Assembly (NCBI GenBank): GCA_022842995.1
Contig: JALHOM010000011.1
Coordinates: 1 to 45,193, forward strand
Direction of reading: 5' to 3'
Origin: Candidatus Saccharimonadota bacterium
GTDB taxonomy: Bacteria > Patescibacteriota > Saccharimonadia > Saccharimonadales > 2-12-FULL-41-12
Length of the DNA: 45,193 nucleotides
The notes beneath the pieces were generated by a model that did no database searches, had not been told where the DNA came from, and was given only the letters and a program-made list of their open reading frames with translations. This document shows positions 14,481 to 43,074 of the stretch, one piece after another; positions within the stretch are counted from its first letter, which is position 1, and each line of letters starts with the position of its first letter. Made by a program: the position numbers and the translations under genes.

Positions 14481-14702
14481 ATGGAGAAAATTAGAAACTT
14501 TTGTATTATTGCTCATATTGACCTCCATGAGACACCCATTCTGGGTTTCTATAGCTTCACGGAAGGTAATCCTTTTATTTCTAATGAGCGGCTTAGCTCT
14601 GGTTCTGCATATATTCGGCGCTCATCGCTTCGAATATCATCGCGCCATGCTCGGAATGAATCCGAGCGTGGGCTGCTCTTCCCAGTTGGGGGTGGACTAT
14701 GA
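14481..14702 (+). CDS. 73-aa leader ORF beginning with a copy of the LepA N-terminus
   Basis: MEKIRNFCIIAHID matches LepA ENIRNFCIIAHID; TATAAT 14466-14471; stop TGA overlaps lepA ATG (ATGA). Confidence 0.5.
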   Translation: MEKIRNFCIIAHIDLHETPILGFYSFTEGNPFISNERLSSGSAYIRRSSLRISSRHARNESERGLLFPVGGGL

Positions 14703-16606
14703 GTAGGGAGAATATACGAAACTTTTGCATAATTGCTCATATTGATCATGGGAAGTCGACTTTGGCTGACCGTTTGCTTGAAATGACGGGTACCGTTCAG
14801 AAGCGCGATATGAAGGCGCAGTTACTCGACAAGATGGATTTGGAGCGCGAGAAGGGGATTACCATTAAATTAGCCCCCGTCCGCATGGGCTATGACTACT
14901 GTGTTTCGCGAATTGCTGTGTCTGATTTTCCAGAAGGCAGTCACGGTATATTAAATACCGCTTCTTTGCCTGCTTCAAATCATCCTTGCACTTCATCAAA
15001 ACACAGCAGTCATTTGTGTGGTGGCTATCAGTTAAATTTGATTGATACGCCCGGGCATGTCGACTTCAGCTATGAAGTTTCGCGTTCTCTGGAAGCATGC
15101 GAGGGAGCAATTTTGGTTGTTGACGCGTCGCAAGGCATTCAAGCTCAGACACTTGCCAACGTCTATTTGGCAATGGGAGCTGATCTCAAGATTATCCCGG
15201 TTCTAAACAAGATTGATTTGCCGGCTGCCGACGTACCGAAGGTTACCAAAGAGGTTATCAGTTTACTCGGTTGCGACGAGAGCGAAATTCTACACATCAG
15301 CGCCAAAACAGGGGAAGGCGTCGACAAAGTTTTAGAAGCAGTTGTCGAGAGGATTGACCCACCAAAAGAACTTGATTCGACTCAGACGCGAGCTTTAATT
15401 TTTGATAGTTATTACGATGATTACCGGGGTGTCATTCTCTACGTCAGAGTCATAGACGGCACCATAAAGAAAAACGAACAGATCAAGATGTGCGCCACCG
15501 ACGCGACCGGGCTGGCTCTTGAGGTAGGGCATCTCTCGCCAGTTATGCAACCGGACGCCAAGCTCGAAGCAGGCGAAATCGGCTACATCGTAACGAACCT
15601 CCGAACAACGCGGGATGCAAAAGTCGGTGATACCGTAACGCTGGCCTCGGCTTCCGGCACTAAGCCTCTGCCTGGCTATAAAGACGTTAAGCCGTTTGTG
15701 TACGCTGGCTTTTTCCCGGAAAGCAACGAGTATTATCAGGACCTAAAAGACGCAATCGAAAAACTTAGCCTGAGTGACTCGGCCTTGCAGTATGATCTAG
15801 AGAATTCACCGGTTTTGGGTTTCGGTGTGCGTATCGGCTTTTTGGGGCTCCTTCATATGGATATCGTGCGCGAGCGACTAGAGAGGGAATACGACCTCGA
15901 ACTGATAGTCACCAACCCCAGCACCGACTATCAGGTAAAACTCATGAACGGCGAGAATATCGAGATCAAGAGTGCCGCCGACTTACCGGATGTTTCAAAG
16001 GTGGCCGAGATTGCTGAACCGTGGATCAAGGGCGAGATTGTCGTTCCCAAAGATTACGTTGGCGCGGTGATACAGCTTATTTCTAATAAACGCGGTGTCC
16101 AAAAGAATATTAGTTTTGTCGATGAGCAGTTGGCTCTGATCAGTTTTGACGCGCCGCTGGCAAACTTGCTGACTGACTTTTATGACCTGCTAAAAAGCGC
16201 AACCAGCGGCTACGGAAGCTTTAATTACGAGCTAGATAATTACCGGGTAGAGAGTCTTGTTCGGCTCGATTTCTATGTTGGTGGAGAAATAGTTAACGCG
16301 TTAAGTATAATGGTTCACCGTTCTGAAGCCGAGTCCCTGGGGAGAGAAATCGTTGCCAAGCTCAAAGAAGTGATACCGCGCCAGAACTTCCAGGTGGCCC
16401 TCCAGGCGGCTATCGGTGGTCGATTTATCGCCCGCGAAGACGTTAAGGCCTACCGTAAAGACGTTACAGCCAAGTTATATGGTGGAGACGTTTCCCGGCG
16501 CAAAAAACTTCTTGCCAAACAGAAAAAAGGTAAAGCCCGTGCCAAACGATTTGGAAATATAGATATTCCAGCCGAAGCCTTTACCGTATTATTAAAGCGG
16601 GATTAA
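14699..16606 (+). CDS. lepA: Elongation factor 4 (LepA GTPase) with a 45-codon in-frame insertion
   Basis: AHIDHGKSTLADR, LNLIDTPGHVDFSYEVSRSL, C-terminal CTD; insertion 14894-15028. Confidence 0.95.
   Translation: MSRENIRNFCIIAHIDHGKSTLADRLLEMTGTVQKRDMKAQLLDKMDLEREKGITIKLAPVRMGYDYCVSRIAVSDFPEGSHGILNTASLPASNHPCTSSKHSSHLCGGYQLNLIDTPGHVDFSYEVSRSLEACEGAILVVDASQGIQAQTLANVYLAMGADLKIIPVLNKIDLPAADVPKVTKEVISLLGCDESEILHISAKTGEGVDKVLEAVVERIDPPKELDSTQTRALIFDSYYDDYRGVILYVRVIDGTIKKNEQIKMCATDATGLALEVGHLSPVMQPDAKLEAGEIGYIVTNLRTTRDAKVGDTVTLASASGTKPLPGYKDVKPFVYAGFFPESNEYYQDLKDAIEKLSLSDSALQYDLENSPVLGFGVRIGFLGLLHMDIVRERLEREYDLELIVTNPSTDYQVKLMNGENIEIKSAADLPDVSKVAEIAEPWIKGEIVVPKDYVGAVIQLISNKRGVQKNISFVDEQLALISFDAPLANLLTDFYDLLKSATSGYGSFNYELDNYRVESLVRLDFYVGGEIVNALSIMVHRSEAESLGREIVAKLKEVIPRQNFQVALQAAIGGRFIAREDVKAYRKDVTAKLYGGDVSRRKKLLAKQKKGKARAKRFGNIDIPAEAFTVLLKRD
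14894..15028. mobile_element. Palindromic element inserted in-frame in lepA
   Basis: GGCTAT at 14888-14893 repeated at 15023-15028; terminal inverted repeats GACTACTGTGT (14894-14904)/ACACAGCAGTC (15001-15011); inner hairpin CGGTATattaaATACCG. Confidence 0.65.
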
Positions 16607-20519: not shown

Positions 20520-21308
20520 TTGGGCAACCTCACTTCGGCTCAGATACTTGTTGGTGCAAGACAGACTATTGAAGCCCTTCGACTAGGCGGTGATTTTGAT
20601 GAGTTGATTAATGTTTTGCCTGGAGATGGTGCCCATTCTCAGCGGCTTGCCGTTATCTCTGGATATGTAGGTATGATGGTGACGGGTAGTGAAGAATATG
20701 GGTTGCGGGTTGCGGCCCAGGGCTTGGTCCATGATATCGGTAAAAAAGATAAGGACATCGCTCCCGTTGTTGCCCTTGACCGTGTTTTAACTTCAGCTGA
20801 ACGTAGGATAGTTCGTCGCCACTCTCAAGAAGGTGCAAATCTTATCAGCTCCAAAGTAAAAAGACGTACGCCTGCTGATAAGAAGAGCATGTATAGATCG
20901 ATGGTCTTATCTACCTTAAGGCATCATGCGCCGATCGAGTTTTTGGCTGGGAATGCCGGGCGGGACTCGGCTCACTTGGCGTCCGCGATTATCGGGATTG
21001 TCGATTCGCTCGACGCAAGGTACGACGAATCCAGGATTAGATATAAAAATAGAGTTCCAGCCCCGGATGATGATATTAATCTCAGAGGAAATTTAATAGT
21101 CGGAAGAGTCTTGGGTCTAAGTTTCAGTAGCAGATCTTTTGAGGAACGGTCTCAGTTACTCGGATTGCCTATGGGTAAAAGGAAATTACACGATGTTTTG
21201 GATTACGCTCATTGTATATGGAGTAGGGTTAACGAAGAAGTAACTCCCCAGGAGCTTAGATTTTTGTCGGGAACTATAGCGGTAGATTCGGCGGTAAGTC
21301 GGATTTAG
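20520..21308 (+). CDS. HD/HD-GYP-like phosphohydrolase (TTG start)
   Basis: VHDIGKKDKDI, RRHSQEGANLI, LRHHAPIEFL, IVDSLDARYDESR. Confidence 0.75.
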   Translation: MGNLTSAQILVGARQTIEALRLGGDFDELINVLPGDGAHSQRLAVISGYVGMMVTGSEEYGLRVAAQGLVHDIGKKDKDIAPVVALDRVLTSAERRIVRRHSQEGANLISSKVKRRTPADKKSMYRSMVLSTLRHHAPIEFLAGNAGRDSAHLASAIIGIVDSLDARYDESRIRYKNRVPAPDDDINLRGNLIVGRVLGLSFSSRSFEERSQLLGLPMGKRKLHDVLDYAHCIWSRVNEEVTPQELRFLSGTIAVDSAVSRI

Positions 21309-21370
21309 GCAAAATAGAGCTTGTTTTCTTAAGAAAATATAAACTAGAGAATTTTGAGAAAATTAGAGAA

Positions 21371-21514
21371 CGCACTCTTGATAGGCGTGCCAAGAGTACT
21401 AATTTTTTGATCCCAAACGTAAATTTTCCACCAATAGTCTAACTATTTTGCCGAAATTCACCTCAGCGTACTAAAAGTACGCTTCAGTCGGATTTAGGCA
21501 AAATAGCGACTCTT
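21371..21514. repeat. Palindromic repeat unit A (period about 180 bp)
   Basis: cgcactcttgataggcgtgccaagagtactaattttttgatcccaaacg..agcgtactaaaagtacgct..ggcaaaatagcgactcttg. Confidence 0.9.
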
Positions 21515-21550
21515 GTTTCTGTCTGGTATCTGGCGGGGGAAATGTGGCGA

Positions 21551-21692
21551 CGCACTCTTGATAAGCGTGCCAAGAGTGCTAATTTTTTGATCCCAAAAGC
21601 TAATTTTGCTCCAATAATCTATCTATTTTTCGAAAATTCACCGAAGCGTACTAGAGTACGCATCGCTCGGATTTTACGAAAAATAGCGACTG
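21551..21692. repeat. Palindromic repeat unit B (diverged, compensatory changes)
   Basis: Same layout as A; inner stem CTATTTTTCG/CGAAAAATAG replaces CTATTTTGCC/GGCAAAATAG. Confidence 0.88.
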
Positions 21693-21728
21693 ATATCTTC
21701 AGAAAGTATCGCTAGGAGGTCTTCAGAG

Positions 21729-21924
21729 CGCACTCTTGACGGCGTGTCACGAGTGCTAATTTTTTGATCCCAAACGTAAATTTTCCACCAATAGTCTAAC
21801 TATTTTGCCGAAATTCACCTCAGCGTACTAAAAGTACGCTTCAGTCGGATTTAGGCAAAATAGCGACTCTTGAAGCAAAATTTATCGTTTGGGAGAAACA
21901 AAAAATTAGCACTCTTGACACGCG
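21729..21924. repeat. Palindromic repeat unit C with complete right arm (concentric palindrome)
   Basis: Arms 21741-21766/21899-21924, CCCAAACG/CGTTTGGG, CTATTTTGCC/GGCAAAATAG, AGCGTACT-aaa-AGTACGCT. Confidence 0.9.
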
Positions 21925-21941
21925 ACTGCCAATTATATAAA

Positions 21942-21968
21942 CTAGCACCCAGAGCATGTAAGTGCTAG
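21942..21968. promoter_or_regulatory. CIRCE operator upstream of dnaK
   Basis: CTAGCACCC-N9-AAGTGCTAG; TTGACA at 21915-21920 and TATAAA at 21936-21941 immediately upstream. Confidence 0.88.
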
Positions 21969-22049
21969 ATTTTTACAAACCTTGATAATTAAACTTTTTG
22001 CGTCCAGATGTTTGCGGCATTTCGTGGCGCGAGCATATGGAGGTAAGAA

Positions 22050-23960
22050 GTGGGAAAAATTATAGGAATTGACTTAGGCACGACTAACAGCGCCATGGCC
22101 GTCATGCAATCTGGCAAGCCAGAGATTATCGCCAACAGCGAAGGTAACCGTACTACGCCAAGCGTTGTTGCTATTAACAAGAACGACGAACGACTGGTTG
22201 GCCAGGTAGCTAACCGTCAGCGTGTTACTAACCCGACGGACACTATTTTTGGCGTCAAGCGACTGATTGGTCGTAAATTTAGCGACAAAGAGGTCCAAAA
22301 AGACATTGACCTCATGCCGTATAAGATAGAGAAAAAAGGTACCGGTGTAACGGTTGTTATGAAGGGCAAGGGCTATAGCCCAGAAGAAGTTTCGGCTATG
22401 ATACTTTCTAAGCTCAAAGCCGACGCCGAGGCTTTCTTGGGTGAACCAGTTACCGAAGCGGTCATCACTGTGCCTGCGTATTTTGACGATTCTCAGCGCC
22501 AGGCTACTAAAGACGCTGGTAAGATTGCGGGACTCGAAGTTAAGCGAATTATTAACGAGCCAACCGCCGCAGCACTTGCCTACGGTCTTGATAAAGGCAA
22601 GGAAGAAAAAATTGCCGTCTTTGACCTTGGTGGTGGTACGTTTGACGTATCTATTTTGCAACTCGGTGACGGTGTCTTTGAAGTACTTTCAACCAATGGT
22701 GATACGCACCTTGGCGGTGAAGACTTTGACCTTCGCATCGTGAACCATTTTGTTGAAGAGTTCAAAAAAGAGTCAGGCATCGATGTAAAAGACGACAAGG
22801 CCGCTATGCAGCGCCTTAAAGAAGAAGCCGAAAAAGCCAAAAAAGAGCTCTCAACTACCGAAGTTGCCGACATTAACCTGCCATTCCTTACTGCCGACGC
22901 CGATGGTCCGAAGCACTTTGAATACAAGCTAACGCGCGCTAAGCTCATTGAACTAGTTGGTGATTTAATCGACGCTACTGCTATACCATGCGAAAAGGCG
23001 CTGAAAGACGCTAAGTTAAAGGCCAGCGATATTAACGAAGTCGTTTTGGTCGGTGGTATGACCCGAATGCCGGCCGTTATCGACAAGGTAAAGCAGATTT
23101 TTGGTAAAGATCCGAAGCAAGGCGTGAACCCAGACGAAGTTGTGGCCGTTGGTGCTGCGATCCAGGGTGCTGTTTTGCAGGGCGATAGCTCAGTTAAAGA
23201 TATTTTGTTGCTCGACGTTACGCCATTGAGCCTTGGTATTGAGACTATGGGTGGTATTGCCACCAAGCTTATCGAGCGTAACTCGGCTATCCCAACCTCA
23301 AAGAGCGAGACTTTCTCGACTGCTGCAGATAATCAGCCTCAGGTTGAGATCCATGTTGTTCAGGGTGAGCGCGAAATGGTTGCCGACAACAAATCACTTG
23401 GTCGTTTTGTGCTAGACGGAATCCCACCAGCCCCACGTGGCGTGCCCCAGATCGAAGTTAGCTTTAACCTCGACTCTAATGGTATCTTGAGCGTTACTGC
23501 CAAGGATAAAGGTTCTGGCAAAGAACAGAGCATTACCATCCAGAACAGTGGTAATTTGTCTAAAGACGAAGTCGAAAAGGCTGCCAAAGAAGCCGAAGCC
23601 CACGCCGAAGAAGATAAGAAAAAGCGTGAAGCAGTAGAGATTCGTAACACTCTTGAAAACGCCATTTACCAGGCCGAGAAGCTAAAGACAGAGCACAAGG
23701 ACAAAATTTCTGAAGAAGACGTCAAGACGATAGACGAAGCCGTAGAAGCTGCCAAGAAAGTCCAGTCTGACGACAAAGCAGACAAGGATGCATTAGAGGC
23801 AGCTGCCAAGGAGCTTTCGGAGAAGATTATGCCTATTGGTGCCAAGATGTACGAATCAAAAGAAGACGAAGCGAAGCCTGAAGGCGCTGAAGAGAGCGAC
23901 AAGAAGTCTTCAACGAAGTCGGATGAGGCTGTTGAGGGCGAAGTAGTGGATGAAAAGTAG
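22050..23960 (+). CDS. dnaK: Chaperone DnaK (GTG start)
   Basis: [44 protein letters not shown]. Confidence 0.98.
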
Positions 23961-40272: not shown

Positions 40273-41001
40273 ATGTCTGGACATAGTAAATGGGCAAAAA
40301 TTCACCGTGGTAAGGCAATAGAAGATGCAAAACGTGGTGCAGTATTTACAAAACTTGGTAACTCAATAGCTTTGGCGGCTAAAGCCGGTGCCGATCCCGA
40401 TATGAACTTTGCGTTAAGGTTGGCAATAGATAAGGCAAAGGCGGCAAACATGCCGGCTAACAATATTCAGCGCGCAATTGACCGAGGTTCAGGGAAATTG
40501 GGTGGCGACCAGATTCAGGAAGTTATGTATGAAGGCTACGGTCCTGGCGGTTCGGCTGTCATCGTAGAGTGTGCGACCGATAACGTTAATCGTACATATC
40601 CAGAAGTACGTTTGGCTTTTTCTAAACACGGTGGCAATATCGCCGAAAAGGGCTCGGTGGCATTTCAGTTTGAGCGAAAAGGCGTCATTACCGTGAAAGG
40701 CTCAGGTGAGGATTTGTTAATGCAAGTGCTTGATGCTGGTGCAGATGATGCCGAAGATGATGACGGTGAAATTACCGTCTATACTGACCCGAAGCAACTA
40801 AATGCTGTTAGGGATAATTTAAAAGCCGCTGGCATCGAGTTAGTAGATTCAGAAATTAGTTTTGTCCCAAAGAATACCGTGCTGATTGACGACGAAGCTA
40901 CGGCCGGCAAGATTTCTCGGATGATGGATGCTTTGGAGGGGTTGGATGATGTTTCGGCGACGCACACCAACTTTGAATTTGCCGACGGTCTAGAGCTGTA
41001 A
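40273..41001 (+). CDS. yebC: YebC/PmpR family protein
   Basis: MSGHSKWAKIHRGKAIEDAKRGAVFTKLGN. Confidence 0.95.
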   Translation: MSGHSKWAKIHRGKAIEDAKRGAVFTKLGNSIALAAKAGADPDMNFALRLAIDKAKAANMPANNIQRAIDRGSGKLGGDQIQEVMYEGYGPGGSAVIVECATDNVNRTYPEVRLAFSKHGGNIAEKGSVAFQFERKGVITVKGSGEDLLMQVLDAGADDAEDDDGEITVYTDPKQLNAVRDNLKAAGIELVDSEISFVPKNTVLIDDEATAGKISRMMDALEGLDDVSATHTNFEFADGLEL

Positions 41002-41120
41002 ACTTTTTTAGAATGCACATTTTTGCCCAAAGCCTTCCGTTTCGCACTCACCGTATTTTAATACGGCTCGTTTGCGATACTCAGTCATTGAACAAAACTG
41101 CACTATTCTAAAGAAAGTTT
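41000..41120. repeat. Concentric palindrome overlapping the yebC stop codon
   Basis: AAACTTT/AAAGTTT, TTAGAAT/ATTCTAA, core CCGTATTttAATACGG. Confidence 0.8.
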
Positions 41121-41237
41121 CACTTGGCCGGAGTTGTTAAGTTGCGCATTGGAAGTGAAATTTCAATCCTTTTCTTTCTTTACTGAGTAGAATATTATTG
41201 CTGAAATTGAAGCCTTGGTTCATGGTAGAGTAGTGAA

Positions 41238-42450: not shown

Positions 42451-43074
42451 TTAGATATCGTTTGCTAGCTCCCACTTCAGTTCATCTAAGAGTTGTTTGT
42501 TTTCTTCGTAATCTTCAACAAACTGAATATATTCTTTTCTGTTTTCAAAGAGATCTAGTATTGCAGTAGGATCTAGCCAGGTTGCGTCTTTCGAGCCTTT
42601 GTAATATGCAATGCTTGAATAGGGATAAGATTTCCATTTGTCTCCTGGATTAAGGTGTATGTATCTCGAAATATGATGCAAATAAGAGTCTTTGTCGATC
42701 AGTGATGCTTTAAATGGTGATTCAAAAAGTGCGCCCGAACGATCGTATTTTCTGTTGAAGTACATTGTGTAGCTTGTTTGTATCGATCTCATCAGGTTGG
42801 TCATCGCACGTTCCTCGTGTTGATATAACAGTATATGCGCATGATTCTTCATCAAGCAAAATGCAGATAGAGTAATGTCTTCTGAATAATTTGGATACAA
42901 TCCGTGTCTTGAACTCGTTTGTTCAGATGAAGGGGAGAGATATCTTTTGAACAGCTGGAGATAATATCCAAAATCCTGCTCATCTATAAATGTAATTTGT
43001 TTGTTTATACCCCTCGTATATATATGATAGAAGCGATCTTTTGAATATTGCTTTATTACGTTTTTTCGGGGCAT
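42451..43074 (-). mobile_element. REP-associated tyrosine transposase (RAYT, Y1_Tnp/IS200-like)
   Basis: YHIYTRGINKQ, FCLMKNHAHILLYQ (HUH), YLHHISRYIHLNPG. Confidence 0.92.

Follow-up and report, generated by a model that had tools for sequence, protein, structure and literature searches.

The LepA protein encoded in the 45,193-nt stretch of Saccharibacteria DNA analysed here (the window) carries an insert within its GTPase domain, and this raises the question of where the insert came from and what becomes of it in the protein. The gene is complete, and the family model TIGR01393 matches its product in two stretches (E 2.1e-253), with the insert lying between the G2 (GITIKLAPVRM) and G3 (DTPGHVDF) motifs. 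Among Saccharibacteria LepA sequences, the closest of which are 73-83% identical to the LepA of the window, insert-free members align in this region as GITIKLAPVRM-xYxxY-[EQ]LNLIDTPGH, that is, with a five-residue turn. Specifically, of 34 insert-free relatives 33 have 6 residues between VRM and LNLIDTPGH and one has 10, as opposed to 48 in the present protein, and the net insert therefore amounts to 42 residues or 126 nt. The two nearest relatives (G001 and G002) have the short loop. A previous sequence-only reading had described about 45 extra residues from switch I to G3, encoded by 135 nt that leave the frame open; the insert, its open frame and its translation (YCVSRIAVSDFPEGSHGILNTASLPASNHPCTSSK) stand as described, but the loop length of the relatives reduces its size to the values given above. 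The features of the gene on which the following argument draws are these:

14699-16606, + strand: lepA (elongation factor 4), 635 aa, complete, with the insert between G2 and G3
14897-15022, + strand: net insert, 126 nt or 42 codons, its boundaries deduced from the loop length of relatives
14888-14893, + strand: first GGCTAT, probably native loop codons (Gly-Tyr), from the loop pattern in relatives
15023-15028, + strand: second GGCTAT, probably native loop codons (Gly-Tyr), on the same grounds
14892-15013, + strand: imperfect palindrome of 122 nt forming one long hairpin, with the inner hairpin CGGTAT-ATTAA-ATACCG at 14944-14960
14888-15015, + strand: full-length match to the R1 family, by a covariance model and a profile HMM that were both built without the LepA copy

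Outside the insert, LepA is covered by solved EF4 structures (2ywe, 3cb4 and others). An AlphaFold model of the protein was poor (pLDDT 58.5) and served only to view the insert, which appears in it as a disordered segment between two strands. With respect to the surroundings of the gene, the DNA directly upstream (14500-14680) contains TTTGTATTATTGCTCATATTGACCTCCATG, which resembles the beginning of lepA (TTTTGCATAATTGCTCATATTGATCATGGG near 14723) in the manner of a decayed partial duplicate.

The two GGCTAT copies had been read as a 6-bp target duplication, an interpretation that the loop length in relatives does not support: it would leave an empty site with two loop codons, and relatives have five. 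The residues G-Y-D-G-Y, on the other hand, match the native loop pattern x-Y-x-[GD]-Y (for example NYQGYQ and AYKGYE in relatives). Because G-Y-D-G-Y is a normal loop and a duplication would fall three codons short, both copies are probably native codons that flank the 126-nt insert. The target site duplication typical of MITEs was not found at the lepA insert, as GGCTAT conflicts with it and no other clean duplication was seen.

The DNA of the insert is strongly palindromic. Folded as a single hairpin, 14892-15013 has a minimum free energy of -38.2 kcal/mol, compared with -21.8 +/- 3.2 kcal/mol in 1000 dinucleotide shuffles, none of which was as low, and its self-complementarity score of 40 exceeds the maximum of 28 among 2000 shuffles. 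The terminal arms (14894-14904 and 15001-15011, 10/11 complementary) and the inner hairpin are present as originally described, and pairing extends further than the arms that were named, to 14892 and 15013, with 14 of 15 bases matched between 14892-14906 and 14999-15013. A scan of the genome based on folding energy was too lax to discriminate; a self-complementarity scan in 4-nt steps, used instead, placed strong 122-nt palindromes at 140 loci, only 20 of which fall inside ORFs of at least 150 aa although such ORFs make up 81% of the DNA. The LepA insert is the strongest of these genomic palindromes within a convincing protein gene. A single palindrome inside an ORF is stronger, and that ORF is a spurious one drawn across RNA-like hairpins; in all, four in-ORF palindromes other than the LepA insert were dismissed as ordinary coding sequence or a spurious ORF. 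For the other proteins of this genome, the search for in-frame inserts looked for palindromes, and degraded copies would escape it.

In terms of origin, the insert belongs on model-based evidence to a dispersed family of palindromes, here called R1. A BLAST search of the genome with the insert returned only the insert itself, and nhmmer with the insert alone gave one weak relative (E 3e-4); its kinship to R1 is carried by profile and covariance models. Palindromes centred on GTAT-n-ATAC have the same build as the LepA insert, and a covariance model made from 19 other palindromes of the genome, LepA left out, was searched against both strands of 1.08 Mb, or 97% of the 1.11-Mb genome. This search recovered about 25 copies of some 120 nt each and found the LepA insert at full length with 46.1 bits (E 1.5e-7, R1 E-values being rough), where the first doubtful matches score 18.9 bits. 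The match lies on the same strand as the gene and keeps 21 of the 23 consensus pairs. A profile HMM from nine of the GTAT-n-ATAC palindromes, again without LepA, also recovers the insert (E 3.9e-6), and its best match in the reversed genome reached 8.3 bits. Since a model built without LepA finds the insert over its full length, the insert is a member of the R1 family. The genome in which this R1-derived insert was found is a single one, and its assembly is fragmented into 30 contigs.

The window holds a second R1 element, as well as two hairpins with a weaker likeness to the family:

40273-40998: yebC (YebC by NCBIfam)
40995-41122, + strand: second R1 element, intergenic, beginning at the yebC stop codon; 103.1 bits as a member of the model's seed
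21409-21538, + strand: R1-like hairpin upstream of dnaK; weak (HMM E 0.035, CM 0.73 for the core only), palindrome score 41
21766-21895, + strand: second copy of this hairpin, nearer dnaK; weak R1 likeness by HMM and CM, palindrome score 50

Upstream of dnaK (22050-23960), the stretch 21250-22050 is built of three units in tandem, in each of which a CIRCE-like GCACTC...GAGTGCTAA operator accompanies a long hairpin; two of these hairpins are identical across about 100 nt.

The R1 family also bears the mark of a conserved RNA fold. RNAalifold applied to an R1 alignment returned six inner pairs only, since stem positions shift, and a structure set by hand then formed the basis of the covariance model. 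Across 53 elements (52 distinct) from other genomes, in an alignment fitted to that model, 86.6% of cells are paired as compared with 65.3% after shuffling, and double changes number 265 versus 87 +/- 7; sliding the pairs by 1-3 columns lowers pairing from 87% to 28-52%. R1 was detected in 33 of 61 Saccharibacteria genomes of the order, at 0 to 34 copies each. Rfam gave no match at R1 elements, and R1 is unreported in the open-access literature searched, itself an incomplete body. Taken together, the covariation, the presence in 33 of 61 genomes and the lack of an Rfam entry make R1 look like an undescribed structured element.

Our preferred reading, which we consider very probable, is that the LepA insert is a decayed copy of R1 that entered the gene after the split from the closest sampled sister and is read through as a loop. 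A tree of LepA built without the insert places insert-free G001 as sister to the present LepA, with support of 96/71 for the uniting branch. In mechanistic terms, a small palindromic R1 element would have been copied into the beta2-beta3 turn of the GTPase domain once the two lineages had parted, and such insertions would persist where their length is a multiple of three, they are free of stops and the turn lies on the surface. As the insert is in frame and without stops, the ribosome most likely reads through it, and the product would be a disordered 42-residue loop that extends the beta-hairpin of an otherwise intact LepA. We infer that R1 moved in the manner of an element, that the protein retains the peptide and that LepA is still functional. 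Tolerance of such inserts is plausible because E. coli grows without obvious defect under standard conditions when lepA is deleted (PMC4245954) and no LepA N-terminus was recovered from some of the genomes surveyed.

The nature of the R1 family is a separate matter, and here the genomic positions of its copies are informative. Apart from the lepA copy, R1 elements in this genome are nearly all intergenic, often directly after stop codons, and no second coding copy was found in the 1.08 Mb covered; R1 is therefore not a specialised coding element. In three samples comprising 63 elements, around which ORFs were called with a simple length rule, 51 have an upstream neighbour on the same strand, and 28 start between -3 and +6 nt from the stop codon of a same-strand gene. 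The genes that R1 follows or adjoins in this genome include ssb, khpA, tsf, secY, secA, class II RNR, RNase Y and yebC, and the position after ssb is occupied by a copy in at least eight genomes. These positions, along with the strong covariation, suggest that R1 may well serve as a 3'-end RNA structure. They also favour a stricter version of that idea, in which R1 is a functional, non-mobile 3'-end structure of housekeeping genes that spread by ordinary duplication and left a stray copy in lepA. We regard this version as a tenable but lesser possibility. For 39 elements of other genomes with a homologous neighbour here, R1 stands at the matching place in 13, many of them after ssb, but is absent from it in 26; copy number ranges widely between genomes, several copies form tandem pairs, and the insertion within lepA itself also speaks against immobility. 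By these comparisons some R1 copies keep their place and others turn over. A role at 3' ends concerns the family as a whole and is compatible with derivation of the LepA insert from R1.

The LepA turn has been entered more than once. An insert-free LepA probe was run against 393 genomes of the order; split matches were flagged, and inspection of the sequences then identified inserts at exactly the beta2-beta3 turn in 20 genomes, with one further locus (L037). All of them are 16-74 residues long, multiples of three in nucleotides and stop-free, and loop lengths are sharply bimodal at 6 (once 10) or 22-80 residues. The LepA tree requires at least 12 gains or losses, seven of them forced by well-supported branches. 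The inserts are mostly unrelated to each other and many are palindromic. R1 was considered as their source and rejected, as its model matches the LepA insert of the present genome alone. Insert queries from seven genomes (G316, G131, G378, G393, G083, G110 and G077) gave 14-23 matches in their own genomes, counts that refer to a concatenated query, and several inserts at the LepA turn are, by sequence, copies of repeats dispersed in the respective genome. The same turn would thus have been struck repeatedly in Saccharibacteria, by each genome's own, mostly unrelated repeats, because the turn is tolerant and the gene often dispensable.

The clearest such case is G316, whose LepA palindrome has 13 relatives in its genome at 79-94% identity. 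Seven of these lie on the coding strand of long conserved ORFs (transketolase, MurC, MetG, TypA, a TsaC-TrmB fusion ORF, UppS and PheT), so that with lepA the family stands in frame in eight genes; one more is antisense in RecG. The coding copies share a peptide close to SARLSKDGERVSDEPRDDGREERRGS, and in a translated search this frame carries no stop in any of the 14 copies. The pheT gene of this genome (L190) has, beside the palindromic insert, an apparent second and different insert of low complexity (AAAMTEPRNDGREGVV) near the N-terminus, at residues ~30-75. A far-reaching extension of these findings would hold that unrelated palindrome families colonise Saccharibacteria genes in frame, that the LepA turn is preferred or selected and its loop useful, and that R1 is a new structured element found order-wide, both spreading and acting as a 3'-end RNA. 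As a whole we consider this extension unlikely.

Several further observations were made on LepA in these genomes. At a number of loci (L004, L005, L117, L118, L122, L126 and others) the insert closes on its 3' side with an inverted repetition of the native lepA codons next to it, as in CAAGTTGAG-TATGAA-CTCAACTTG, and changes on one side are matched on the other, a pattern suggestive of fold-back copying during insertion or of correction guided by the hairpin. Two separate genes encode LepA at L115, L119, L120, L124, L125 and L127 (in G135, G316, G230, G172, G109 and G284, respectively) and also in G275, G312 and G385. The N-terminal ORF stops just past VGDTVTL, at the end of domains I-II, and a C-terminal ORF of ~320-350 aa follows on the same contig and strand some 0.5 to 6 kb downstream, an arrangement suggestive of gene fission where domains II and III meet. 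The LepA N-terminus was not found in several fairly complete genomes (G005, G016, G031, G052, G064, G094, G106 and others), for which gene loss or assembly gaps are possible reasons.

With respect to what might move such elements, the genome contains five RAYT-like Y1 genes, one of them in the window and 1.3 kb from an R1 element:

42451-43074, - strand: Y1/REP-type tyrosine transposase gene (PF01797 over cut-off; NF047646 REP_Tyr_transpos at E 3e-9, below its cut-off)

A perfect palindrome around GCGCAGGGTC-GACCCTGCGC occurs on both flanks of this gene. Y1 transposases are candidate movers of palindromic elements, and R1 and the other palindromes could have been moved by these HUH enzymes in the way RAYTs move REPs. 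The counts lean in this direction, with R1 in 14 of 19 Y1-bearing genomes versus 19 of 42 others (compared without a formal test). We nonetheless consider it distinctly doubtful, as four of the five Y1 genes have their own short, perfect or near-perfect palindromes close by, which differ from gene to gene and are not R1, and G051, which lacks a Y1 match, has 34 copies of R1. R1 flanks none of the five Y1 genes in this genome and is not supported as the RAYT's own REP.

It is also conceivable that the LepA insert is an ordinary lineage-specific loop expansion whose hairpin is accidental, given that the loop varies across Saccharibacteria and that E. coli does without lepA, as noted above. The match of an R1 model made without the insert, a hairpin beyond all shuffles, the bimodal loop lengths and the derivation of inserts in other genomes from their dispersed repeats render this explanation very improbable. 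That the ribosome bypasses the insert, with GGCTAT for take-off and landing, or that it is removed from the RNA, is scarcely credible despite a hairpin lying between matching codons GGC TAT, as 21 of 21 inserts keep the frame without a stop, neither of which bypassing or splicing needs, and both GGCTAT copies are accounted for as native codons.

The probable R1 copy in lepA invites comparison with palindromic elements known from other bacteria. The sequence-only reading had likened the insert to Rickettsia palindromic elements (RPEs), in a CPR-like genome, and its view of an in-frame palindromic element is upheld by the insert-free nearest relatives and the membership in R1. Ogata et al. (2002; cited in PMC10969869) called protein-coding palindromes a unique feature of Rickettsia in their title. 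Their occurrence in Saccharibacteria, distant organisms with equally small genomes, would mark the process as more general than Rickettsia and its relatives, and the repeated hits at the LepA site supply a natural insertion series with empty-site relatives, in which tolerance, usefulness or a route to gene loss becomes testable.

RPEs are dispersed palindromes of 105-146 bp that lie partly in frame within conserved protein genes and are read through (PMC2229807, PMC10969869). The 122-nt hairpin, the ~25 dispersed R1 copies and the in-frame placement in lepA resemble them, and the G316 family comes close, with one conserved peptide in many genes as in RPEs. R1 differs in being nearly always intergenic at gene 3' ends, with a single coding copy in this genome, and in having its host in a different phylum. 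A search of the insert peptides against NCBIfam, RPE models included, returned nothing at a threshold as lax as E 10, and in our analysis the LepA insert is RPE-like in behaviour, with no relation to RPEs seen in its peptide sequence. MITEs such as ERIC, NEMIS and RUP are ~100-200 bp long, with terminal inverted repeats, long stem-loop transcripts, mostly intergenic locations and some in-frame fusions (PMC2229807). R1 shares their size, terminal inverted repeats and mostly intergenic placement; however, its stems vary with covariation whereas MITE copies are near-identical, it shows no target site duplication or TA ends, and the Y1 genes lack R1 flanks. REPs are palindromes of 20-40 bp (PMC3733652), many of which carry GTAG or CGTC as a tag at one terminus, whereas inspection of the aligned R1 members revealed no terminal tag of this kind. 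R1 is longer, at ~120 nt with internal loops, and does not flank the RAYT-like genes, but it resembles REPs and BIMEs in comprising extragenic palindromes after stop codons, partly as tandem pairs, in a genome that has RAYT-like genes.
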